NCBI GenBank assembly: GCA_021815645.1
Contig: JAKBAB010000010.1
Location: forward strand, 1-36,112
DNA from: Actinomycetes bacterium
GTDB lineage: Bacteria; Actinomycetota; Acidimicrobiia; Acidimicrobiales; RAAP-2
Direction: 5' to 3'
DNA length: 36,112 nucleotides
A program made the position numbers and the translations under genes. The notes beneath the pieces were generated by a model. That model worked only from the letters and a program-made list of their open reading frames with translations. It searched no databases and was not told the DNA's origin. Of the stretch, positions 9,987-23,612 are shown piece after piece (the stretch's first letter is position 1; each line of letters starts with the position of its first letter).

Positions 9987-10664
9987 TCACACCCGTGGCC
10001 CAAAGAGAGCCCGCCCTATACGCAGTTCCGTAGTGCCCGACTGACAGGCCAACTCCAGGTCGTCACTCATCCCCATCGAACATTCGTCAAGGCGCCACTG
10101 GTCCGCGAGCGCGCGCGTCAACTGAAAAGCCGCTCGCGCCGCGCTGGGTTCCACCGGAGCGACCACCATAACCCCGCGTACGTCCAGCCCCGCGTCACGC
10201 GCGCGTAGAACTAGATCGCCGAAGTGCGCCGGGGCGACACCGTTTCTCGTCGCCCCCCCGGTTACGTCAACTTGGCAGTAGACCGACGCTCCCGGTGCGA
10301 GCGCGGCGACTCTCTCAACTTCACGCGTCCGAGACAGCGAGCACACGACGTCCGCGCAACCGAGTACCCGGGCAATTTTATTCGTTTGCAGTACCCCCAA
10401 ATAGTGCCACTGGGTTGCCGGGTTGTCGACTTCACGTCTCTTGCGACACAACTCATCGACGTAGTTCTCGCCGAAGGTGGTCAGACCGACCATCGCGGCG
10501 ACGCGAACGTCTTGGGCGCTGAAGGTCTTCGTGACCGCCACGACGCGCACGTCGCGCGGATCGCGCCCACTCGCATTTATTCTCTCGTGAACTCGCGCGA
10601 GATTGTGACGCAGCCGTTCGCCGTCCTCGGCGCTATCGCAAGAAACTGGGGAGGTCGTCGTCAC
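9987..10664 (-). CDS. YggS family PLP homeostasis protein
   Basis: [72 protein letters not shown]. The ORF opens to 10709; GTG at 10664 is the more plausible start (32-nt overlap with ftsZ). Confidence 0.93.
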
Positions 10665-11709
10665 CCCCAACGTCGAAGATATCTTCGCCGGCCGAAGTGA
10701 AAATGTCACTGCGCGGACCTTCGGTCATGACGGGCTGAACCGACGTAACGGACTTCGGCGCCACCGCGTCGAAGCCGGCGGCAATGACCGTCACCCGCAC
10801 CGCCTCACCAATCGAGTCATCGATAACGCTGCCGAAAATGATGTTGGCGTCGGGGTGAGCTACGGAGTGAATAATCTCCGCGGCCTGGGTTACCTCGCTC
10901 AAGGTGACACCGGGACCTCCCACGATGTTCATTAGTATGCCCCGCGCTCCGTCGATGGAGGCCTCCAGCAACGGAGAGGTAATGGCCGCCCGAGCGGCGT
11001 TGACCGCGCGACCCTCTCCCGTGGAACTGCCCACGCCCATAATCGCGGTGCCCGCGTTCCTCATCACGGTGTTAACGTCCGCGAAGTCCGTATTGATCAG
11101 TCCGGGGACGGTTATGAGGTCGGTGACGCCGCGAACGGCCGACAGGAGGACGTCGTCGGCGACTTTAAAGGCGTCGAGCATCGAGGTTTCCGGTGCGGTC
11201 ACCGACAACAGTCGATCGTTGGGGATAACAATCAGGGTGTCGACTTTGTCACGCAACGCCTGGATTCCCTTTTCGGCCTGAGTCGCGCGTCGTTTTCCTT
11301 CAAAGGAGAACGGGCGCGTGACGACGCCAATGGTCAGTATCCCCAACGCGCGCGCAATTTCGGCCACCACCGGCGCCGCACCGGTGCCAGTACCCCCGCC
11401 CTCGCCGGCGGTTATAAAGACCATGTCGGTGTCCTTGAGCGCTTCTTCGATCTCCGCGCGATGGTCTTCGGCGGCCTGGCGACCCACTTCGGGGTCACTG
11501 CCGGCGCCGAGGCCTCTCGTCAATTGACGCCCGATGTCAATCTTAAGATCGGCCTCACTAAGTAGGAGCGCCTGCGCGTCGGTGTTCGCCGCGATGAACT
11601 CGATACTCTTCAGCCCCGCGGTTATCATGCGATTCACCGCGTTGGCGCCGCCCCCACCCACGCCTATCACCTTGATTACGGCGTGGTAGTTGCTCTGACT
11701 GAGACTCAT
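10633..11709 (-). CDS. ftsZ: Cell division protein FtsZ
   Basis: 358 aa; [28 protein letters not shown] tubulin signature; C-terminal [21 protein letters not shown]. Confidence 0.99.
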
Positions 11710-11777
11710 GGGCTCCCCTTGGCTATCTCTACTATTGTTACCGCCCTGGCGGGGGCAAATCGGCGAACAGTTCCTGA

Positions 11778-11806
11778 AGGCTAGTCACTGCCTAGTTTTT
11801 GGTCAA
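11778..11806 (-). promoter_or_regulatory. Candidate ftsZ promoter TTGACC-N17-TAGCCT in the ftsQ-ftsZ gap
   Basis: Minus strand TTGACC (11806-11801), 17-nt spacer, TAGCCT (11783-11778). Confidence 0.5.
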
Positions 11807-11814
11807 ATAAGAGC

Positions 11815-12573
11815 TCACCCCGACGGGGGCGTCACCGCCAACTCGTCGGGTACCGTAACGTCTACGACGTCGCCCGGCACCAGGGTACTGTGGGCAATTA
11901 CCGAAGCGATGGCCATGAACTTCGCCTCAAGTTTATGGGTTGACCCGAGTACGAACGTAACGGGGGTGGTCAAGGTGAGTGAGAGCGAACCGCGGCCACT
12001 TTCGGTGATGACCGAGACTTGCGCGCTGAAGGCTCGTGGGAGTCGGGAGGCGACGTAGGCCGCCGGGCGAGCGCTCGACGAGAACGGCCACGACTGAGAC
12101 GATGATCCAGAGAATCTCAAGGTCGGCAAATTGGCGCTCAGTGGAGCGCGTCCGAGGTCGCGACCCTGCGCGTTTACGTACTCGAGGTGGTGGTGCGCGC
12201 CAAAGGCGACCGCGACCGCAACACTCTCTTTCACCGAAACCACGACGGTGTTGGGCCACTTTTTGGTCAGCTTCACCGAAGAGATCCAGGCGAATCGCTC
12301 CAGCCTTCGCTCGAGCGTTGCGTCGTTGACGGTCAACATGGAGGGGTGCTCCGCGAGCCCCGAAGCCGCGAGGACCGCGGCGACGGACTCGTGACGCAGG
12401 CCGACGAAAGAAACGTGTTGGACGCGCAGGTAAGGCTGTCGAAGCACCCACGGCACCGCGACGGCGAGGGCCGCTGCCACTACGACCCCCGAGGCCAGAA
12501 CCCACCTCCGACGGCGGCGGCGCGGGGCCGGACCGTCTTCCACGGCCGAAAGGGGGCGGCGCCGTTTCGTCAC
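11815..12573 (-). CDS. ftsQ: FtsQ-type cell division protein (POTRA domain)
   Basis: 252 aa; basic N-terminus, single TM, LRVQHVSFVGLRHES...WISSVKLTKKWPNTVVVSVKE; position between murB and ftsZ. Confidence 0.92.
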   Translation of the reverse strand: MTKRRRPLSAVEDGPAPRRRRRRWVLASGVVVAAALAVAVPWVLRQPYLRVQHVSFVGLRHESVAAVLAASGLAEHPSMLTVNDATLERRLERFAWISSVKLTKKWPNTVVVSVKESVAVAVAFGAHHHLEYVNAQGRDLGRAPLSANLPTLRFSGSSSQSWPFSSSARPAAYVASRLPRAFSAQVSVITESGRGSLSLTLTTPVTFVLGSTHKLEAKFMAIASVIAHSTLVPGDVVDVTVPDELAVTPPSG

Positions 12574-13484
12574 TGGCCGTCTCCGAAGCCCACGAAGTGG
12601 TGTTCACTGGCCAGATCGACCCCGCTCGCCTCTCGAACACGGTCGCGCAGTAGTGAGATCAGCTGATAGACGTCGCTGGCCCGACCGCCGGAGTCGGCCT
12701 GAATGAAGTTCGCGTGTTTCTCGCTCACGCTCGCACTCCCAACGCGCAGACCCTTTCCACCCACCAAATCGATGAGCCGGGCGGCACTGTCGTTGGGGGG
12801 GTTGCGAAAGACGCTCCCGGCGTTGTGGCCACCGGGTTGATTCTCACGGCGCCACCGCACTACGTCGCGCACTCGCTCCTCACATTCGCTCGCCGCTCCC
12901 GCGCGCAGCGCCATAGTGACCCCGAGGACGACGTCTCCCGACTGCAAGGCGCTCGTGCGGTACCCGAGCGCCAGTCGGTCCTTCCCCCAGCTCTCCTCGG
13001 TACCGGCGCGCCACACTCGGGCTGAGAGAATCGTCGCGGCCACGTCGGAACCGTGGCCACCGGCGTTCATCTTCGCGGCTCCCCCAAAAGTGCCGGGCAC
13101 GCCCACCGCCCACTCGAGTCCCGTCACTCCGTCGTGGGCTAGCCGTCGAGCGGCCACGGGGAGTTCGATAGCGGCGCCCGCCTCTACGGTCACCCCCCCG
13201 TCACCACGGTGCCACCGCAGTGACGCGAACTGTCCACCGAGACGAAGTGCCACCAGTGGCGTCTCCCCGTCGGCCACGAGCACGTTGGATCCATTTCCCA
13301 AGACGAAGAGGGGAAGCTCGGTAGCGGCCATCAGTGGGCTTAACTCCGCTAAGTCGCTATCGCTGCTGACTCGAACGAGGCACCGAGCGCGACCACCTAC
13401 GCGGTACGTCGTGAGGGCGCCCAATTGCGCGTGTTCCTCGACGCGGTCGCCGCCAACTTTAATCAGTACGTCTAGGGCCGTCAC
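12570..13484 (-). CDS. murB: UDP-N-acetylmuramate dehydrogenase (MurB)
   Basis: 304 aa; TTYRVGG, LGNGSNVLVAD, GVPGTFGGAAKMNAG, NAGSVFRNP, SEKHANFIQ. Confidence 0.97.
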   Translation of the reverse strand: MTALDVLIKVGGDRVEEHAQLGALTTYRVGGRARCLVRVSSDSDLAELSPLMAATELPLFVLGNGSNVLVADGETPLVALRLGGQFASLRWHRGDGGVTVEAGAAIELPVAARRLAHDGVTGLEWAVGVPGTFGGAAKMNAGGHGSDVAATILSARVWRAGTEESWGKDRLALGYRTSALQSGDVVLGVTMALRAGAASECEERVRDVVRWRRENQPGGHNAGSVFRNPPNDSAARLIDLVGGKGLRVGSASVSEKHANFIQADSGGRASDVYQLISLLRDRVREASGVDLASEHHFVGFGDGQ

Positions 13485-14845
13485 TCGAGACCGCCCGGCA
13501 ACGAGTTGATCACCGACGCGACGTCGCCCGCCCCGACGAAGAGCAGGACGTCACAGCCACCAATCTCGGACACCAGCGAGGGCACGACGTCGTCGAGGCG
13601 CTCGTGATAACTCGCGCGTCCCCCGAAGCCGAGACGACCAAGGGCTCTGACGATGACCTCACCGGTCACCCCGGTCGGATTGCCCTCACCCGCGCGGTAG
13701 ATATCCGAAACTACGACGCGGTCGGCCGCGGTGAGGGCCCGCGCTAACTCGTCGGAGAGCGCGACGGTGCGAGTAACCCGGTGGGGCTGAAAGACGACCG
13801 CCACTGACTGGTACCCGGCGGCGCGCGTTGCGGCTATGGTCACCGAAATCTCACTCGGTAGGTGGGCGTAGTCTTCGTAGACGTCGATCCCGCGCCACGC
13901 CCCGCGATACTGGTATCGGCGCGGCGCCCCGAGGAAGTTAGCGAGACCGGTAGCGACCACCGGGGCGTCGATGCCGCGCAAACGAGCCAACGTCGCCACG
14001 ACCGCCGCGTTGGCGACGTTGTGCGCCCCCGTAACTCGCAGCGAGATTCGAAAGCTCTCCCCGGGGCCCGTAAGGGTGAAAGACGAATGGCGCCTAGCCA
14101 GTTCAACATCGGAAACCCGCCACGGGGCCTTCGCCACTTGGGCCACCGTGACAATCTCGTGTCCAGAGGTATCGCCCACCCGCACGGCGCCCGGATCATC
14201 TCCCCACACCACGACGGGTCCTCGAGTTCGTTCGATCAAATCGGTGAAGGCGCTTTCCAACTGGGCCACGGTGCCGTAGTAGTCGAGGTGGTCCGGTTCA
14301 ACGTTGAGCACACCGAGAAACGCCGCTTCGACTTCGCGAAAAGTTCCGAAACTCTCGTCCACTTCAACAATCAAATCGCCCCTCCCCCAGTGACCGTTAG
14401 AGCCAACGCCGAGCACGGGCGCTCCCAGGAGCCAACCGTCGTCGCGACCGTCGGCTAGAGAGACGTGGACCATCATCGACGTAGCTGTCGTCTTTCCGTG
14501 CGTCCCGCACAGTCCAACGAGCGGGGCGATTTTCGAAAGTTGACCGAAGAGCGTCGATCGCGATACCGCCCGCACGCCTCGCGCTCTCGCGGCCGCGATT
14601 TCGGGGTGATCGTCTGAGATCGCGGGCGACCACAGCACGACTTCGCACTGATCCACGTGCCCGGACGAGTGACCAATCGCCGTCGCGACGCCGCGGTGAC
14701 TTAGCTCGGTGAGCGTAGGTGAGTTGGCGACGTCGCATCCGCTTACGGCAGAACCGGACTCGGCCACCAGCGTCGCCACGCCACTCATGCCGGCGCCCCC
14801 CACCCCGACGACGTGCACGCGCTCGTGCGCGTCGAAGAGAGTCAC
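13481..14845 (-). CDS. murC: UDP-N-acetylmuramate-L-alanine ligase (MurC)
   Basis: 454 aa; VHVVGVGGAGMSGVA, GLCGTHGKTTATSM, EDYAHLPSEI, FQPHRVTRT. Confidence 0.97.
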   Translation of the reverse strand: MTLFDAHERVHVVGVGGAGMSGVATLVAESGSAVSGCDVANSPTLTELSHRGVATAIGHSSGHVDQCEVVLWSPAISDDHPEIAAARARGVRAVSRSTLFGQLSKIAPLVGLCGTHGKTTATSMMVHVSLADGRDDGWLLGAPVLGVGSNGHWGRGDLIVEVDESFGTFREVEAAFLGVLNVEPDHLDYYGTVAQLESAFTDLIERTRGPVVVWGDDPGAVRVGDTSGHEIVTVAQVAKAPWRVSDVELARRHSSFTLTGPGESFRISLRVTGAHNVANAAVVATLARLRGIDAPVVATGLANFLGAPRRYQYRGAWRGIDVYEDYAHLPSEISVTIAATRAAGYQSVAVVFQPHRVTRTVALSDELARALTAADRVVVSDIYRAGEGNPTGVTGEVIVRALGRLGFGGRASYHERLDDVVPSLVSEIGGCDVLLFVGAGDVASVINSLPGGLE

Positions 14846-15960
14846 GGAACCACTCGCGCCGAAATCGTCACGTCGGCGATGCGCAGGGCCGCCCCCCGAC
14901 GGCCCAGCGACCGGGCCCCTTCAGCCATCGCGGAAAGCACAGACGGGGACGTAATTGACTCGAGGACCCTCTCGAGCGCTTCACCCGTGCACAGATCGTC
15001 ACGAATCACTACGGCGCCACCCACACCCTCCACGGTAAGGGCGTTCTTCATCTGGTGATCGTCGGGCGCTCCCGGCAACGGTACGAGAACTGAGGGTATT
15101 GCGAGGGTCGTCAATTCGGCGACGGTGATAGCGCCCGCGCGACAGATCGCCACGTCACACACCGTCCACATAAGGGTCATATCCGCGAACGGCACCACCC
15201 GGTAGTCGAGGCCGCACGTCTTCGGGGCACGATCGCGCACTACCTCGAAGTCGCGACGGCCAGTCACGTGGATAAGGGCGACGTCAGTGCGTAATCGCCA
15301 CGTTTCGGCCAACTCGGTCACGGCACCGTTGACCCGAGCCGACCCCAATGAGCCGGTCATGACGACCACGACCGTCCGATCGGGGTCGAGCGGCGGAGTC
15401 ATGTGGGCCGAGGTCCTCGCCCGAGCCGGGGGGCTACGGTCGACGCTTTCGACTTCACTGCGTACCGGTGCGCCGGTCACCAGAACGTTGTCGCCCGAGG
15501 TGGGAAAAGCGCAGCATCGCCACCGGGCGTGACGCGCCGCAAACCTCGACACCACTCCCGGAGCCGCGTCGAACTCCACCACGATGAGCGGAACTCGCCA
15601 CCACAGTGCCGCCAAAGTCGCCGCGGCCGACGCGTACCCCCCCACCGACACCACCGCCGTCGCTCGCCAGCGTCGCAACAAAATCACCGCGCCGACAGTC
15701 GCTACCAGTAGCCCGCCGACGGCCCCGCAGTTCGCCACGACGGCCCCGGGACGCCACGAGCGCTGGAGCCCCCGACCGGGCAGTCTCGTCAACGAGACGG
15801 CGCTACCACCGAGCAGCTCACTCTCCTTCCCCCGGCGGCTGCCCACAAAACGCAGCTCAGACTCGCTCACGCCCCGGGCCACGAGCGCGTCCGCGAGCGC
15901 CCGCATGGGAAAGATGTGCCCACCCGTACCGCCTCCGGTAATCACGATGGGTCCCCGCAC
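14842..15960 (-). CDS. murG: UDP-N-acetylglucosamine transferase (MurG)
   Basis: 372 aa; VITGGGTGGHIFPMRALADAL, RAGAITVAELTTLAIPSVLVPLPGAPDDHQMKNA. Confidence 0.97.
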   Translation of the reverse strand: MRGPIVITGGGTGGHIFPMRALADALVARGVSESELRFVGSRRGKESELLGGSAVSLTRLPGRGLQRSWRPGAVVANCGAVGGLLVATVGAVILLRRWRATAVVSVGGYASAAATLAALWWRVPLIVVEFDAAPGVVSRFAARHARWRCCAFPTSGDNVLVTGAPVRSEVESVDRSPPARARTSAHMTPPLDPDRTVVVVMTGSLGSARVNGAVTELAETWRLRTDVALIHVTGRRDFEVVRDRAPKTCGLDYRVVPFADMTLMWTVCDVAICRAGAITVAELTTLAIPSVLVPLPGAPDDHQMKNALTVEGVGGAVVIRDDLCTGEALERVLESITSPSVLSAMAEGARSLGRRGAALRIADVTISARVVP

Positions 15961-17216
15961 TATCGGGCCCGTGATCGATTACCGGCTCCGGAGCGTTCGA
16001 AGGCGCGCCCGGCACGGGCCGGTGGCCTAGGGGCGGGCTCGAACCGACGGCGGCGCGCGCCGCCACTCGACTCGAGAGTCACGTCGGGCCCGCGCGACCG
16101 GTCGTGGGCGACGTTGTAGAGAAGACCCACGGCCGCCATTTCGGTGATGAGCGCGGTCCCACCGTAAGAGAAGAAGGGCAGCGGCACCCCGGTGACGGCC
16201 CACCAGCCGACGACCGACGCAATATTGATGATCGCTTCGACCATTATCCAGGTCATTACGCCCACCGCGACCAGCCGGTTAACCGGGTTGGCGCACTGCT
16301 GGGCAATGCGCACCGACACCATTAAGAACACCACGAAAAGGGCAATGACGGCGAGGGTCCCGATGAGACCTAACTCTTCGCCGACGATGGTGAAAATAAA
16401 GTCGGTGTGGGGATTGGGCAGTAGACCGAACTTCTCGCGACTGTTGCCCAGGCCCAGGCCCGTTAGACCACCCGCGCCCAATCCAATACGCGACTGCAAT
16501 AGTTGGTAACCACTTCCCAGGAGGTTGGCGTTGGGGTGTAGAAAGGAAAAAAGTCGCTGAGCGGCGTAGGGTTTGGCCGCGAGGTAGGCGCCAACCCCCA
16601 CCCCCGTAACCAAGGTCGCACGAACCAAAAGACGGCCGGAGAGTCCCGCCGACGCCAACGTCGCGACGGCGATCATCAACACCACCGACGCGGTGCCGAT
16701 ATCGGGCTCGAGAACAATCAGGGCGCAACCTAACCAGATTGGCGCCGTACGTACGACGAGAGACTTCGCTTGATCCAAATCGCGATGGTGGTGCTGAACC
16801 AACCACGCTACGTACAAAATTGCGCACAACTTAAAAAGCTCCGACGGCTGTAAGTTGATGACCCGCAAGTCGAGCCACCGCTTCCCACCGTTAGTCGAAA
16901 CCCCCACCAGCTTTACCGCGAAAAGCAAAGCGAGACCGCCACCGATAAGTGTGGGCGCCAGGGCGACGATCCGCTCGAGGCGAACCCGGGCCGCGACGTA
17001 CCACGCAAAGATGCCGAAACACAGGTACGCCAGGTCGTGGGCGACAATCGAAAACGCGGACCCACCGTTGGCGGCCGCCTGGCCCTCACTGGCGGACGCC
17101 ACGAAGACGGTACCGAAAATTATGAGCGCCACGGTGGTGGCGAGCAAGACCCGTCCCGTCGCGCTACCTCTCGGTAGAGGTTGAAACAGACCGTGATCGC
17201 TACTCGCGCCGCGCAC
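15960..17216 (-). CDS. ftsW: SEDS peptidoglycan glycosyltransferase FtsW
   Basis: 418 aa polytopic; NGGKRWLDLRVINLQPSELFKL, NPHTDFIFTIVGEELGLIG, GVPLPFFSYGGTALI. Confidence 0.95.
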   Translation of the reverse strand: MRGASSDHGLFQPLPRGSATGRVLLATTVALIIFGTVFVASASEGQAAANGGSAFSIVAHDLAYLCFGIFAWYVAARVRLERIVALAPTLIGGGLALLFAVKLVGVSTNGGKRWLDLRVINLQPSELFKLCAILYVAWLVQHHHRDLDQAKSLVVRTAPIWLGCALIVLEPDIGTASVVLMIAVATLASAGLSGRLLVRATLVTGVGVGAYLAAKPYAAQRLFSFLHPNANLLGSGYQLLQSRIGLGAGGLTGLGLGNSREKFGLLPNPHTDFIFTIVGEELGLIGTLAVIALFVVFLMVSVRIAQQCANPVNRLVAVGVMTWIMVEAIINIASVVGWWAVTGVPLPFFSYGGTALITEMAAVGLLYNVAHDRSRGPDVTLESSGGARRRRFEPAPRPPARAGRAFERSGAGNRSRAR

Positions 17217-17218
17217 CC

Positions 17219-18253
17219 TTAGACCACCTTGGCGATCTTTAGAAAGTCACCGTAGAAGATACCCAAGCCGAGCATCGCTAAGAGGCCGGCCAATATCCAG
17301 AACCGAATAATGATTGTTGTCTCGGGCCACCCGAGGAGTTCGAAGTGGTGGTGAAGTGGGGTCATCCGAAAGATTCGCCGACCGAACAGACGCAGGCTGA
17401 GCACTTGAAGTATCACCGAAGCCGTGACGGCGACGAAGAGGCCGCCGATAATAACGAGGAGCAGGTCTAGATTCATCAAGAGGCAAAGGGCGCCGAGACC
17501 CGTGCCAATGGCGAGGGCGCCCGTGTCGCCCATGATGATGCGCGCCGGAGCCGCGTTCCACCACAGGAACCCCAAACACGCTCCGACGAGCGCTACCGCA
17601 ACGAGTCCGAGGTCGAGGGACGCGTGAAGGTGGTAGATCGAGAAGTGACGGAACTGCCAGTAGCCGATGATGGACAAAACGCCGAAGCAGAACGTCGCCG
17701 ACCCCGCCGCGAGGCCGTCGAGTCCGTCGGTGAGATTCACGGCGTTAGACGTAGCGATAATTACGAAAACCGCGAGGAGAAACCAGCCGCCCGCCGTCAG
17801 ATTCCATCCCGGTAGGGAGAACCGGGTGAAGGAAAAATTAGTCGAAGTGTGAACCCACGTCAGCGCCAGCACGGAAAAGGCCCCGGCGATCGCCAGCTGT
17901 CCGAACAGTTTGGCCCGCGCGTTAAGGCCAAGGTTTCTTTCGTTTCGAATAGCGACGTAATCGTCAACGAGCCCCAAAACGCCCGAGGCGACAATCACCA
18001 TCGCCGCGAGCACTCCCGAGCGGGTAAAGACAATCGCCGTCCCAACGTGGCCCATGGCGTAACCGAGCAGAGCCGCTCCGACTATGACCACCCCACCCAT
18101 CGTGGGTGTTCCGGCCTTGCGCAGGTGGGTCGAGGGAACGTCCTCGTGAATACTCTGGCCCATTGAGCGAGCTCGCAGGAAGCGAATCCACAGAGGTGTG
18201 AGCAGTAGGGAACAGACGAAAGCCACACCGCCCGATTCCATCAAACTCAACAT
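17219..18253 (-). CDS. mraY: Phospho-N-acetylmuramoyl-pentapeptide-transferase (MraY)
   Basis: 344 aa; KAGTPTMGGVVI, GLVDDYVAIRNERNLGLNARAKLFGQ, NAVNLTDGLDGLAAG, MTPLHHHFELLGWPE. Confidence 0.98.
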   Translation of the reverse strand: MLSLMESGGVAFVCSLLLTPLWIRFLRARSMGQSIHEDVPSTHLRKAGTPTMGGVVIVGAALLGYAMGHVGTAIVFTRSGVLAAMVIVASGVLGLVDDYVAIRNERNLGLNARAKLFGQLAIAGAFSVLALTWVHTSTNFSFTRFSLPGWNLTAGGWFLLAVFVIIATSNAVNLTDGLDGLAAGSATFCFGVLSIIGYWQFRHFSIYHLHASLDLGLVAVALVGACLGFLWWNAAPARIIMGDTGALAIGTGLGALCLLMNLDLLLVIIGGLFVAVTASVILQVLSLRLFGRRIFRMTPLHHHFELLGWPETTIIIRFWILAGLLAMLGLGIFYGDFLKIAKVV

Positions 18254-18260
18254 CTGCGCC

Positions 18261-19661
18261 TCACTTCAAGAGCTCCCGTACGACGGCGCGGTCGTCGAAC
18301 GGAACTTCCACTCCGTTTAGAATTTGAACGGTTTCGTGACCCTTGCCGGCCACCACGACCACGTCACCGTCGGTGGCCAGTTCAAAAGCTCGGGTAATCG
18401 CTCGTCGGCGATCCTCTTCACGCACCACCGTGTCGAGCCCAACCAACCCCGCCAGTGTCTCGTCAATAATCGCACCAGGTTTCTCAGATCGAGGGTTGTC
18501 AGACGTAACTACCGCGACGTCCGATCCCGCGACTGCGACGCGCCCCATCTCGGGTCGCTTTGCGCGATCTCGGTCGCCCCCGGCGCCGAAAACCGTGATC
18601 ACCCGACCGCGGGGACGCAGGGCTCGTACGTCAGCTAGGAGGCGGTCGAGTCCTTCGGGGGTATGTGCGTAGTCGACGACGGCGGTCACGCCCGACCCGC
18701 GGATTACTTCAAACCGACCCGGGACGCTGTTGACCTCCGCCATCGCTGCCGCAATCCGCGCCGACTCCTCCCCGAGGGCACTCAAAATCGTCATCGCCAT
18801 AATCGAATTGTCGACGTTGAAACCACCAACCAGTGACGAGTTGACCAGGTGTCCTCGCCAAAAGTAGGTAGAACCTTCGAGCGTCGTTGAAATTTCGCTG
18901 ACATCCTCGCGCGACACTCGCGTCACCGGAACGGAAGTCGTCTCGGCCAGTCGTCGACCGAAAGAATCGTCGGTCCAAATGACGGCCCGACGAATGCGCT
19001 CGCTACAAAAGAGTGACGCCTTGGCCGCGAAATACTGCTCTTGAGTTCCGTGGTAGTCGAGGTGATCGTGGCCCAAATTCGTGAACGCACCGACACAATA
19101 GTGAAGGCCCTCAATACGTCGTTGAACCAAAGCGTGGCTCGATACTTCCATCGAAACAACACACTTCGCAATGACGGGATCGAACGAACCCACGAGCGTA
19201 GCGAGTGTCCGGTAGAGCTCGGGCGAAGCCGGAGTCGTTCGCGGGCCGGTCAAGGTCCCGATGCTGGCGCCATTCCAACCGAGGGCCCTAGCCAACTCGC
19301 TCACCATCGTCGTCACGCTCGTTTTGCCGTTGGTACCGGTAACGGCGACCAACTTCACCTTCGTTTGGGGGCTACCGACAATGACCGAAGCGGCGTGGGC
19401 CACTAACGGGACGATTTGAGTTGTGGGAACGACAACGAGCGGCACGGAGGTAGGAACTGCGCGATCGGAAACGACCGCCACCGCCCCCCGCGCGACCGCT
19501 TCGTCCACGAATTGGACTCCGTGGCTCGTTGTACCGGGCATCGCGAAGAAAAGAGTTCGGTCGCTACAGCTTCGCGAGTCAATCTCGACCCGTTCGACTT
19601 CAACGCTGCTCGTCACGACGTCTAGCGCTAGGTCATCGAGGATGTCGCCCAACTGCATCAC
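18261..19661 (-). CDS. murE: UDP-MurNAc-tripeptide ligase MurE, meso-DAP type
   Basis: 466 aa; VTGTNGKTSVTTM, GHDHLDYHGTQEQYFAAKASLF, TSDNPRSEKP (DNPR motif associated with meso-DAP specificity). Confidence 0.96.
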   Translation of the reverse strand: MMQLGDILDDLALDVVTSSVEVERVEIDSRSCSDRTLFFAMPGTTSHGVQFVDEAVARGAVAVVSDRAVPTSVPLVVVPTTQIVPLVAHAASVIVGSPQTKVKLVAVTGTNGKTSVTTMVSELARALGWNGASIGTLTGPRTTPASPELYRTLATLVGSFDPVIAKCVVSMEVSSHALVQRRIEGLHYCVGAFTNLGHDHLDYHGTQEQYFAAKASLFCSERIRRAVIWTDDSFGRRLAETTSVPVTRVSREDVSEISTTLEGSTYFWRGHLVNSSLVGGFNVDNSIMAMTILSALGEESARIAAAMAEVNSVPGRFEVIRGSGVTAVVDYAHTPEGLDRLLADVRALRPRGRVITVFGAGGDRDRAKRPEMGRVAVAGSDVAVVTSDNPRSEKPGAIIDETLAGLVGLDTVVREEDRRRAITRAFELATDGDVVVVAGKGHETVQILNGVEVPFDDRAVVRELLK

Positions 19662-21493
19662 GTCACGTCCGAAGAGATAGTGGCCGCGATGCCCTTAAGG
19701 GGCTTCTGGACGGCGCCGTTTGACGGAATACCGTAGTGGTGCAGGGCGTAGGACATGACTGCTTGAAAAACCGGCGCGGCCACGGTTCCGCCGTAGATGT
19801 TCGTTACCGGTCGTTGCACCATCACAATCATTGATAACACTGGATTATTCGCCGGCGCGAAACCCACGAATGTCGCGTCAAAACTATTGGTTAGCACCGA
19901 GCGGCCGGGGTAGGGAATGGTCGCGGTCCCGGTCTTGCCCGCCACCAGGTAACCGGGTATCACCGCGTTGACTCCGGTCCCGGCGAGGACAACTTGCTCG
20001 AGCATTTTGACCATGGTGTGGTCCACCGATGGTGACAACACTTCGTGTGTGGCACTCGCTGGTGCCGCCTTGAGTGACCCGTTAGCGTACACGTAGCCTC
20101 GAACCAACTTGGGCTCGACGAAAACTCCGCCGTTGGCGATCGTGTTGAATGCGTCCAGGACCTGAATCGCCGGCACGGCGTCGACCTGACCGATGGGCAG
20201 GGCGGCTTGGTCGCTCGCGTACCAGTTCGCCGCGTTGACCAGCAGTCCCGCGGTCTCGCCGGGAAAGTTGACCGAAGTCGTCTGCCCGAACCCAAGTCGA
20301 TAGACCTGCGACAACAGACCGGCTTCACCAACGCGGTGTCCGATTTCGTAAGTGCCAATGTTGGATGACTGAGCCAGTACTTGGGTGGCGGTGAGGTGTT
20401 CCAGTCCGTGGGTCTCGGCGTCGTGAAAGATTCGTCCGCCCACCACTATGGAGTTTGGCACCGGGAAGACGGTTGTGGGTGTAATCAAGTGACGTTGGAG
20501 CGCGGCCGAAAAGGTGACGACTTTAAAGACCGAACCCGGCTCGTAGGCTTGGGTAAAGGGCAGATTGTTGATGGTCTGATCGATGCCCGCTACACCCACG
20601 GATTTTCCCCAGGACGTAATCGGTCCCAAAATACCGGCGCGAGTTTTCGTATTCACCAGGGAAGCATCCGCCAAAATCTCCCCCGTGTGGACGTCCATGA
20701 CCAGCGCGAGACCACTTAACCCGTCGTAAAGCTTGATGTCACGGGCCAAGACCCGCTCCGTTACGTACTGCAACGATGAGTCCAGCGTGAGTTCGAGGCC
20801 GACACCGGGTGTGGCCTTCTTAAGCACGGTCGCCGGCGATGCGGGTAGATTCACTCCCGAAGAAGAAACGTACTCCTGCGTTAGCCCACTCTGTCCGGCG
20901 AGGAGCCTTTGGTACTCATACTCGAGGCCCGCCGATCCGGCACCACTAGCGTTAACGCCCCCCAAGACCGAAGTGGCGAGCGGTCCGTCCGGGTACGTTC
21001 GAATCGACGAACTCTGGACCACGACTCCGGGAAAAGTCATGGCCGCGACCTTTTTGCCGTCGGCTAGGTCGAGACCGTTATTGAGTATTACGTACCCGCT
21101 CTTTTCGGATAGTAAGCGGCGAAGCTTTGAAGTAGGGACGTGCACCAACGGTGAGAGCGCCCGCGCTTCGGTGTGGGGGTGGGTAATTTGAAAGTCATCG
21201 GCGATCACTACCGAGGTTGGTCGCGAAATGGCCAACGTCTCTCCGTGTCGGTCGTAGATTCCCCCGCGAAGTGCGGTTACCGGCAAAGTGACCTTAACCT
21301 GCGCCACGGAAAGCCGGGCGTAGTGAGCGTGGTCGACAACTTGTAGGTAGAACAGGCGAACCCCTAGGGCCGCGAGAGCGAGCGCGAAAACGGCCCGCAA
21401 CATCAACAACCTTCGATTGCCGAGTGAACCACTTCGCGGCTCGCGTCGCGGAGATGCTGCGCGGGCGTGGGTCGAGGTGTAGTGCGCGCTCAC
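19658..21493 (-). CDS. ftsI: Penicillin-binding protein, FtsI/PBP3 class B transpeptidase
   Basis: 611 aa; SVFK (SxxK), SSN (SxN), KTGTA motifs; single N-terminal TM. Confidence 0.95.
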   Translation of the reverse strand: MSAHYTSTHARAASPRREPRSGSLGNRRLLMLRAVFALALAALGVRLFYLQVVDHAHYARLSVAQVKVTLPVTALRGGIYDRHGETLAISRPTSVVIADDFQITHPHTEARALSPLVHVPTSKLRRLLSEKSGYVILNNGLDLADGKKVAAMTFPGVVVQSSSIRTYPDGPLATSVLGGVNASGAGSAGLEYEYQRLLAGQSGLTQEYVSSSGVNLPASPATVLKKATPGVGLELTLDSSLQYVTERVLARDIKLYDGLSGLALVMDVHTGEILADASLVNTKTRAGILGPITSWGKSVGVAGIDQTINNLPFTQAYEPGSVFKVVTFSAALQRHLITPTTVFPVPNSIVVGGRIFHDAETHGLEHLTATQVLAQSSNIGTYEIGHRVGEAGLLSQVYRLGFGQTTSVNFPGETAGLLVNAANWYASDQAALPIGQVDAVPAIQVLDAFNTIANGGVFVEPKLVRGYVYANGSLKAAPASATHEVLSPSVDHTMVKMLEQVVLAGTGVNAVIPGYLVAGKTGTATIPYPGRSVLTNSFDATFVGFAPANNPVLSMIVMVQRPVTNIYGGTVAAPVFQAVMSYALHHYGIPSNGAVQKPLKGIAATISSDVT

Positions 21494-21942
21494 CGCAAGG
21501 TCCGTGACGTCGCCGTTGCGGAACCGGAAAACTTCGGAAGCGGCAAGGGGACGTCAAGACCCGTCGAGGGTATCTGCGTGACCGACGTGGGACTTACGAG
21601 GTGCAGGGCCCCCGCTTTCGTCGCGATCAAGCTGGGCGCCGACAGGTTGGTCAAGGAACCAACGTGAACGGCGTAGTTGGACTGAAGTTGGAGCAGTTGA
21701 CTGTCCAGCGAGTGAATCTCTACTTGCCTATTCGCTTCCAACATGGTGCCGAACAGGGCCAGGGAGAGCGACGCCACCACAATGATCACTGACTTACGAA
21801 CCGCCGACGCCGCTCGCCAACCGTTCGCGACGACCGCCCGTCGTGGCGCGGTGGCCCGATGGCGCGCGCCTCGGCGCGACCTCGTCGGTGGCTCGAGGGC
21901 CCGTCCCCGCTCTACGCGTCGGGGCAGGCTGATCACGCTCAC
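21490..21942 (-). CDS. ftsL: FtsL-like bitopic division protein
   Basis: 150 aa; basic N-terminus, one TM (SVIIVVASLSLALFGTML), short coiled segment; position between rsmH and ftsI. Confidence 0.75.
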   Translation of the reverse strand: MSVISLPRRVERGRALEPPTRSRRGARHRATAPRRAVVANGWRAASAVRKSVIIVVASLSLALFGTMLEANRQVEIHSLDSQLLQLQSNYAVHVGSLTNLSAPSLIATKAGALHLVSPTSVTQIPSTGLDVPLPLPKFSGSATATSRTLR

Positions 21943-22997
21943 GGCCGCAACTTCCGCGCCGCGCGCAGGCGCGCGGAACGCGCCCGGGGATTAACCTCGA
22001 TTTCGCGAGAACTCGCTAACCGAGCACTCGATTTTAGGACCTTCACGCGGGCCGTCGCGCCGCAGACGCAGCCCAATTCGCGGGGACAGTGACAGCCCCC
22101 GCTCTGCTGTTCGGCGAAAAACGACTTTACGAGCCGATCTTCCCCGGAGTGGTACGACACGACGACGACTAACCCCCCCACCGCCAGTTCGTCTAGGGCC
22201 GCCGCGAGTCCTCGCGCCAACTGCCCCAACTCGTCGTTGACCGCAACGCGCAAGGCCTGAAACGTTCGAGCGGCCACGTGCCCGTGGCGACGCGCCGATT
22301 TAGGGACAGCTCGGTCCACTGCGGCCGAGAGTTCGAACGTCGTCTGCGGTCGGCTCTCAATGACCGAGCGGGCGATTGAGCCCGCGAAACGCGCTTCGCC
22401 GTTTTCGCGCAATAGTGAGGTGAGTTCTGCTACGTCAATTCGAGCAATGAACTGCTCGGCCGTTTCCCCAGCGCGGGTGTCCATACGCATATCGAGTGGC
22501 GCGTCCGTTCGGTACGAGAAGCCCCGTGACGAGGTGTCGAGTTGGTGCGACGAAACCCCGAGATCCATCAAAACCCCTACGACGGGCTCACCGCGTACAA
22601 ACGACCGGTGATCGACCACCACGGCGGATAGGTCGTCGAAAGTGGCGTCGACCACGCGACTCCTCATTGGGAACTCGGCGAGCCGTTCTCGCGCCGCGCG
22701 CCTTGCGGCGGGATCTCGATCAACGCCCAGAACCCGCAGGTGATCCGTTTCCGACAAAAGAGCGGCGCTGTGTCCACCCCCGCCGACGGTCGCGTCAATA
22801 ACGAGGCCCGGCGCCAACCCCGCGAATAACTCGACAATCTCCCGTGTCAGTACGGGTTCGTGGTATGGGTCGAGGGCCATCCGCAGCCTTTCAATCGCGG
22901 CAGCGGGCGAGAGGGCGGAGGAGGATTCCCGCTCGACTGCCGCGATTGCCAGGCTGCGCGTGGTCCGCGACCGGTACTGCCACTGAACTCCCGTCAC
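21939..22997 (-). CDS. rsmH: 16S rRNA m4C1402 methyltransferase (RsmH/MraW)
   Basis: YHEPVLTREIVELFAG, VIDATVGGGGHSAALL, DLGVSSHQLDTSSRGFSYRTDAPLDMRMD. Start at GTG 22997 (overlaps the mraZ stop) or internal ATG 22880. Confidence 0.97.
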   Translation of the reverse strand: MTGVQWQYRSRTTRSLAIAAVERESSSALSPAAAIERLRMALDPYHEPVLTREIVELFAGLAPGLVIDATVGGGGHSAALLSETDHLRVLGVDRDPAARRAARERLAEFPMRSRVVDATFDDLSAVVVDHRSFVRGEPVVGVLMDLGVSSHQLDTSSRGFSYRTDAPLDMRMDTRAGETAEQFIARIDVAELTSLLRENGEARFAGSIARSVIESRPQTTFELSAAVDRAVPKSARRHGHVAARTFQALRVAVNDELGQLARGLAAALDELAVGGLVVVVSYHSGEDRLVKSFFAEQQSGGCHCPRELGCVCGATARVKVLKSSARLASSREIEVNPRARSARLRAARKLRP

Positions 22998-23416
22998 TAG
23001 TCACTTCCCTGCTTAAAAATCTCTTCGGCGGCGTTGACCTTCTCCGCGTAAGCGGAGGGGTTCCACATTTCCACGTGATCAATGGCTCCCACGACCAGTA
23101 CGTCGCCAGATAGTTGTCCGTATTCGCGAATAGCCGTGGGCAGGGCGAATCTTCCCTGTTTGTCAAATTCAACGTCGGAGGAGTTGGCCGACCAATAACG
23201 AACCTGCTGGCGTTCGCTCGAACCGCCCAGACGAATTTGCTGGAGTCGCTCCTCCATTTGGCGGGAGAACTCGCCCGGCGTCCAGAGCGCGACGCACCCT
23301 TCGGTATTAGGGCTCAGATGTCCGCCCCGTTCGAAGGCGGGTCGAAACTTTGACGGAAGAATGAGTCGACCCTTGACGTCCAGCGAGTGCTGAAACTGGC
23401 CGACGAACCCGAGCAT
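22997..23416 (-). CDS. mraZ: MraZ transcriptional regulator
   Basis: MLGFVGQFQHSLDVKGRLILPSKFRPAF...; ATG 23416-23414 preceded by GGGAGGA. The ORF track start at 23440 looks too long (see findings). Confidence 0.95.
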   Translation of the reverse strand: MLGFVGQFQHSLDVKGRLILPSKFRPAFERGGHLSPNTEGCVALWTPGEFSRQMEERLQQIRLGGSSERQQVRYWSANSSDVEFDKQGRFALPTAIREYGQLSGDVLVVGAIDHVEMWNPSAYAEKVNAAEEIFKQGSD

Positions 23417-23430
23417 TCTGTCCTCCCGCG

Positions 23431-23490
23431 GTGTCACCATTTGACCCCACTTCGTGACACATTACACCACAAGTCACCACCAACCGCCAC
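23431..23490 (-). promoter_or_regulatory. Tandem 10-bp GTGG-type direct repeats (candidate MraZ operator)
   Basis: Minus strand: GTGGCGGTTG GTGGTGACTT GTGGTGTAAT GTGTCACGAA GTGGGGTCAA ATGGTGACAC; candidate -10 TAATGT lies inside. Confidence 0.85.
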
Positions 23491-23612
23491 TAACTCCTCC
23501 CAACCCCTCTTCCGGCGTCCGGGGGCTCCGCAGAAGCGCTACGCGAGATCCGAGGGGTTGGCGAAATGCCAGTGGTTAGCGAGAACCGGGCTCAGTGGAA
23601 GTGGCCGAAAAA

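Follow-up and report, generated by a model that had tools for sequence, protein, structure and literature searches.

A GTGG repeat array before mraZ in an Acidimicrobiales genome as a probable MraZ operator of the dcw operon

The question raised by this locus is which protein reads a run of GTGG-like units placed before mraZ in a member of the Acidimicrobiales, and with what effect on the genes behind it. MraZ is among the most widespread of bacterial regulators and is encoded ahead of genes for cell division and wall synthesis; to our knowledge, its binding sites are known in few organisms. An earlier note on this DNA had described six units at an exact 10-bp period, overlapping a candidate -10 element, and had proposed that MraZ binds them and controls the whole dcw operon, its own gene included, by promoter occlusion. 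The array is considered here within the window (the whole stretch of 36,112 nucleotides that was analysed), in the 1.9 Mb assembly, and across relatives in the genus, the order and the phylum.

The array and the dcw cluster behind it

The minus strand (23490-23431) carries the six units letter for letter as the earlier note gave them, in exact 10-bp register (Table 1), and over the six 10-bp steps 22 of 24 positions match GTGG. The next-best non-overlapping place in the window has a GTGG score of 17, and the best scores in order-2 Markov copies of the window (n = 60) range from 16 to 18, with a maximum of 18. When 300 Markov copies were made of the local 180 bp, no tetramer scored 22 at any period from 5 to 20. 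Across the 1.9 Mb assembly, GTGG-N6-GTGG-N6-GTGG has a single exact occurrence, namely in the array before mraZ. Just upstream of the array lies a perfect 10-bp inverted repeat (CCAACCCCTC/GAGGGGTTGG, 23500-23509 and 23552-23561, 42 nt apart); this region folds no better than shuffled versions of it (z -1.15), and visual inspection of sister upstream regions showed nothing similar.

Table 1. Features of the array, its predicted promoter element and the dcw cluster (positions in the window)
Feature	Position	Strand	Remark
Unit 1, GTGGCGGTTG	23481..23490	-	weakly conserved; TTGG in most sister genomes
Unit 2, GTGGTGACTT	23471..23480	-	
Unit 3, GTGGTGTAAT	23461..23470	-	best-conserved unit, 0.85 identity among genus genomes
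Predicted -10, TAATGT (TAnnGT), across the unit 3/unit 4 junction	23459..23464	-	unit 3 alone keeps TA at positions 7-8
Unit 4, GTGTCACGAA	23451..23460	-	GTGT common in genus; other relatives GTGG
Unit 5, GTGGGGTCAA	23441..23450	-	
Unit 6, ATGGTGACAC	23431..23440	-	sister genomes mostly GTGG
Shine-Dalgarno-like GGGAGGA of mraZ	23421..23427	-	GGAGG-like element at the matching place in most sisters
mraZ, 139 aa	22997..23416	-	Pfam MraZ, 60.4 bits; start aligned in relatives
mraW (rsmH), second gene of the cluster	21939..22997	-	Pfam Methyltransf_5, 295.8 bits
Rest of dcw cluster: ftsL-like ORF, ftsI-type PBP, murE, mraY, ftsW, murG, murC, murB, ftsQ, ftsZ	10633..21942	-	

The array immediately precedes mraZ, the first gene of a dcw cluster that reaches ftsZ, and its end is separated from the mraZ start codon (ATG 23416) by 14 bp. 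The mechanically called open reading frame begins at another ATG (23440, inside unit 6), an unlikely start, as the aligned relatives and the Shine-Dalgarno-like sequence favour ATG 23416. Residues 5-132 of the encoded MraZ align with solved MraZ chains (1n0e, E 1e-12); a literature search on the recent MraZ structures (9qlr and others) gave no publication. Within the cluster, the ftsL-like label refers to the position of an otherwise unassigned 150-aa open reading frame in the place of ftsL. The genes murF and murD are absent from the cluster as it stands in the window (10633-23416, minus strand); for murD, the best match lies on a different contig (C80:2142-3383) and exceeds the curated cut-off, and that for murF (C2:8311-9330) falls below it.

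A sequence-only profile was built from the arrays of 30 relatives, including that of the window, and used to search for further sites. In the window's genome, the array was recovered at E 1.2e-13, and the next match (E 0.19) falls in a probable coding region. Among related genomes, 75 of 91 contain a match at E<=0.1, and the strong matches occur once per genome, just upstream of mraZ wherever mraZ was found. Matches to the 30 source genomes are partly circular, a circularity from which both the lack of a second site in the window's genome and the spacing spectrum described below are free. At the sensitivity of the profile, no second conserved MraZ target was seen in the window's genome or in the related genomes. 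One genome in which no mraZ was found carries a strong array match (G118:C55:34-91, E 5.3e-11) at a contig end, which has probably cut off its mraZ.

Conservation of phase, units and unit number

Near matches come mostly from metagenome-assembled genomes of Acidimicrobiaceae/Acidimicrobiales from palsa, bog, fen and other sources. The mraZ gene was located in 138 of 148 relatives from the same order, and 129 upstream regions (83 from the genus and 46 from other families of the order) were compared by placing a profile of width 60 on them without gaps. The relatives' units are direct repeats of a GTG core with the consensus AAGTGG-N-G. Counted without any alignment, GTGG-GTGG distances of 10, 20, 30 and 40 bp occur 165, 126, 128 and 71 times in the genus and 50, 37, 26 and 6 times in the other families, versus 1-2 times in shuffled sequences, and in a phylum set of 70 further mraZ loci from Actinomycetota the corresponding counts are 109, 60, 20 and 5. 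The opposite strand has no GTGG spacing peak at these distances in the genus and order loci. The distance from the array to the start codon varies across loci from ~10 to >100 bp, with the phase kept throughout; in a minority of relatives, the run of units is short or interrupted. Conservation of the GTGG phase in relatives, a point on which the earlier note had staked its reading, is thus strong at the level of genus, order and phylum. Outside the genus, secondary peaks at 21, 31 and 41 bp (order and phylum loci) suggest single-base phase slips inside some arrays.

Conservation differs from unit to unit. Pairwise identity among genus genomes is ~0.3 in the flank upstream of the array, 0.49 in unit 1 and 0.60 in unit 2, and then 0.85, 0.80, 0.75 and 0.70 in units 3 to 6. 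Each of units 3-6 is closer to the same-numbered unit in other genomes than to its neighbours in its own genome (0.38-0.64 among units 2-6), and in the spacers this resemblance across genomes is stronger still; the array is therefore old, and each unit has been kept separately. All six of the units proposed earlier are present, but the conserved core consists of units 2-6, with unit 1 weak. The two units that had been called degenerate also differ from each other: the GTGT of unit 4 is common in the genus, and the ATGG of unit 6 is mainly local.

The number of units is a property of the lineage that the earlier note did not contain. With a run defined as consecutive units having at least 3 of the 4 GTGG letters, genus runs have a mean length of 5.2 and a mode of 6, those of the order's other families a mean of 3.9, and those of the phylum set a mean of 3.5 and a mode of 3, so that genus arrays have mostly 5-7 units versus 3-4 in the phylum; six stand in phase at 10-bp spacing in the window. 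Under a looser core rule, the longest runs comprise nine units and occur at three genus loci. One locus (L072, genome G062) carries ~nine in-phase 10-bp units upstream of mraZ, among the longest arrays seen.

Promoter elements within the array

The hexamer TAATGT is present at minus 23464-23459, as the earlier note had it, and its proposed role as a -10 element inside the array gains support from a conserved TA peculiar to one unit. Across all 129 loci, positions 7-8 of unit 3 alone are mostly TA (0.84 and 0.91), and TAnnGT, whose GT is the opening of unit 4, is found at 75 of 83 genus, 28 of 46 order and 36 of 70 phylum loci. The conserved TAnnGT thus falls inside the array, and the predicted -10 that it forms would place the transcription start at ~23452. 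A different -10 (TGTAAT, two bases upstream), for which the TTGGCG that sister genomes have in unit 1 would be the partner at 18 bp, is disfavoured; at a position where sigma-70-type -10 elements need A, it would have a near-invariant G, and its last T is missing in many relatives. The T, A and final T of TAnnGT are conserved, unlike that last T, in a comparison that was conditioned on the TA, the support for the TA itself coming from the 129-locus profile.

A canonical sigma-A -35 (TTGAC-like, 16-19 bp before the -10) is missing from the focal promoter, where the best hexamer matches at 2 of 6 positions. None of the 75 genus loci with TAnnGT scores above 4/6 at this spacing, which is the background level, versus 24 of 28 TAnnGT loci from other families of the order that score 5-6 of 6 to TTGACA. 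Likewise, TTGAC stands 16-19 bp (25 times 17 bp) before TAnnnT at 29 of 46 other-family loci of the order versus 0 of 83 in the genus. The genus therefore lacks the TTGAC -35 of most sister families, and repeat units cover its place, a trait that was also absent from the earlier note. On a tree of MraZ (FastTree), the genus forms one clade with support of 100, and the -35 is weak in 74 of 74 genus loci and good in 23 of 27 other loci of the order. The state in the other families points to loss of the -35 in the genus as the direction of change. Outside the genus, a good -35 is weakly tied to fewer upstream units (p = 0.04, phylogeny ignored).

An operator for MraZ and the competing readings

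We consider it highly likely, from the sequence comparisons, that the array is the MraZ operator (a set of MraZ boxes) of the dcw operon and acts in autorepression by promoter occlusion. MraZ would be the bound protein and repression the outcome, and the earlier proposal to this effect agrees both with the anatomy of the locus and with published MraZ biology (PMC8475190, PMC5282649, PMC7761207). MraZ, encoded 14 bp downstream, is an oligomer in the shape of a ring, each subunit of which probably reads a single GTGG box. Being spaced by 10 bp, the boxes all face the same side of the helix, where one or more rings can bind several of them together. The boxes extend from the would-be -35 place, via the predicted -10, to just before the ribosome-binding site, so that bound MraZ would exclude RNA polymerase from the promoter and lower the expression of mraZ and the genes downstream. 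Occlusion of the -10 and start region is the most likely mode of action, given the published MraZ boxes, the effect of mraZ loss in Mycoplasma genitalium and the match of the focal protein, over nearly its whole length, to solved MraZ chains.

Boxes described from other bacteria show what is shared and what is particular to this lineage. The consensus AAGTGG-N-G fits the Mollicutes box (AAAGTGKN3)3, a set of three units (Fisunov et al. 2016, as cited in PMC5282649 and PMC8475190) to which MraZ binds as an octamer (PMC5282649). Both arrays consist of direct repeats with an A before the GTG core and a 10-bp period, set in the dcw promoter before mraZ; however, the Mollicutes have three units versus mostly 5-7 in the genus, and the genus has a G after GTG in most units. 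In Burkholderia cenocepacia, the promoter PmraBc contains four GTG repeats (7 nt with 3-nt spacers) overlapping the dcw start site, and a fragment with the repeats is shifted by MraZ in EMSA (PMC7761207). The 7+3 nt repeats are shared with the present array, in which overlap with the start site is predicted from sequence. The four Burkholderia repeats lie downstream of the -10, whereas here the repeats begin 26 bp upstream of the -10 and, unlike in Burkholderia, the -10 takes its GT from one of the repeats. The boxes of Escherichia coli likewise stand at the head of the dcw cluster (Eraso et al. 2014, as cited in PMC8475190 and PMC7761207) but lie downstream of the -10 (PMC7761207), which here is predicted inside the array. 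In M. genitalium, mraW and ftsZ transcripts rise when mraZ is lost (PMC8475190), and the same source describes E. coli MraZ as a repressor of its own expression, the role assumed for the present protein.

The array could also be an MraZ operator at which MraZ activates, or both activates and represses, the protein on the upstream units helping RNA polymerase at a promoter that has a -10 only. This appears unlikely, as units 4-6 lie over the predicted start site and extend past it, an arrangement typical of a repressor, MraZ acts as a repressor in the two organisms just mentioned, and a -10-only promoter can work without MraZ. What speaks for activation is the background-level -35 of the genus, set against the good -35 of most other-family loci, together with the separation of the genus by -35 status as one clade on the MraZ tree and the position of the extra units over the old -35 place. 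The corresponding history, in which one Acidimicrobiales clade lost its -35, the array grew over the vacated place and MraZ occupancy, on more boxes than the three or four of other known systems, helps to switch on or grade the promoter besides shutting it off, is similarly doubtful.

Binding by a protein other than MraZ is very unlikely; other regulators do act at mraZ promoters (e.g., MtrA in Dietzia; PMC9602371), but the boxes agree in sequence and spacing with those published for MraZ, and the array has no second copy in its genome and accompanies mraZ across the phylum. More improbable still is a G-quadruplex control element of the kind proposed for the mraZ promoter of Staphylococcus aureus, where a quadruplex in the promoter region has been reported (PMC11796246). 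The strand is G-rich and one 25-nt stretch of the focal upstream region has a G4Hunter score of 1.52, but four tracts of at least three G with loops of 1-7 nt are absent from the focal array and from all 83 genus loci, and occur at 1 of 70 phylum loci and at 10 of the 46 other-family loci of the order. This motif test disfavours the quadruplex, which moreover requires neither the conserved T of GTGG, nor the preceding A, nor an exact 10-bp phase. Recent, functionless tandem duplication through replication slippage would account for tandem units of a common 10-bp period but is scarcely credible because the units are maintained individually, units 3-6 matching their counterparts across genomes above their neighbours, and the phase is kept across the phylum.

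As an MraZ operator, the array is an ordinary regulatory site of an already known kind, with two traits of its lineage: more boxes than in the MraZ literature consulted, and a -35 missing beneath the extra boxes. It is very probably a known kind of switch that has become unusually long in this soil and peat actinobacterial group. The comparison gives a clear definition of the operator across Actinomycetota, with the -10 placed inside it, and box numbers that range naturally from 3 to about 9, in loci that have a -35 and in others that lack it, could serve to test how many boxes are needed per MraZ ring.
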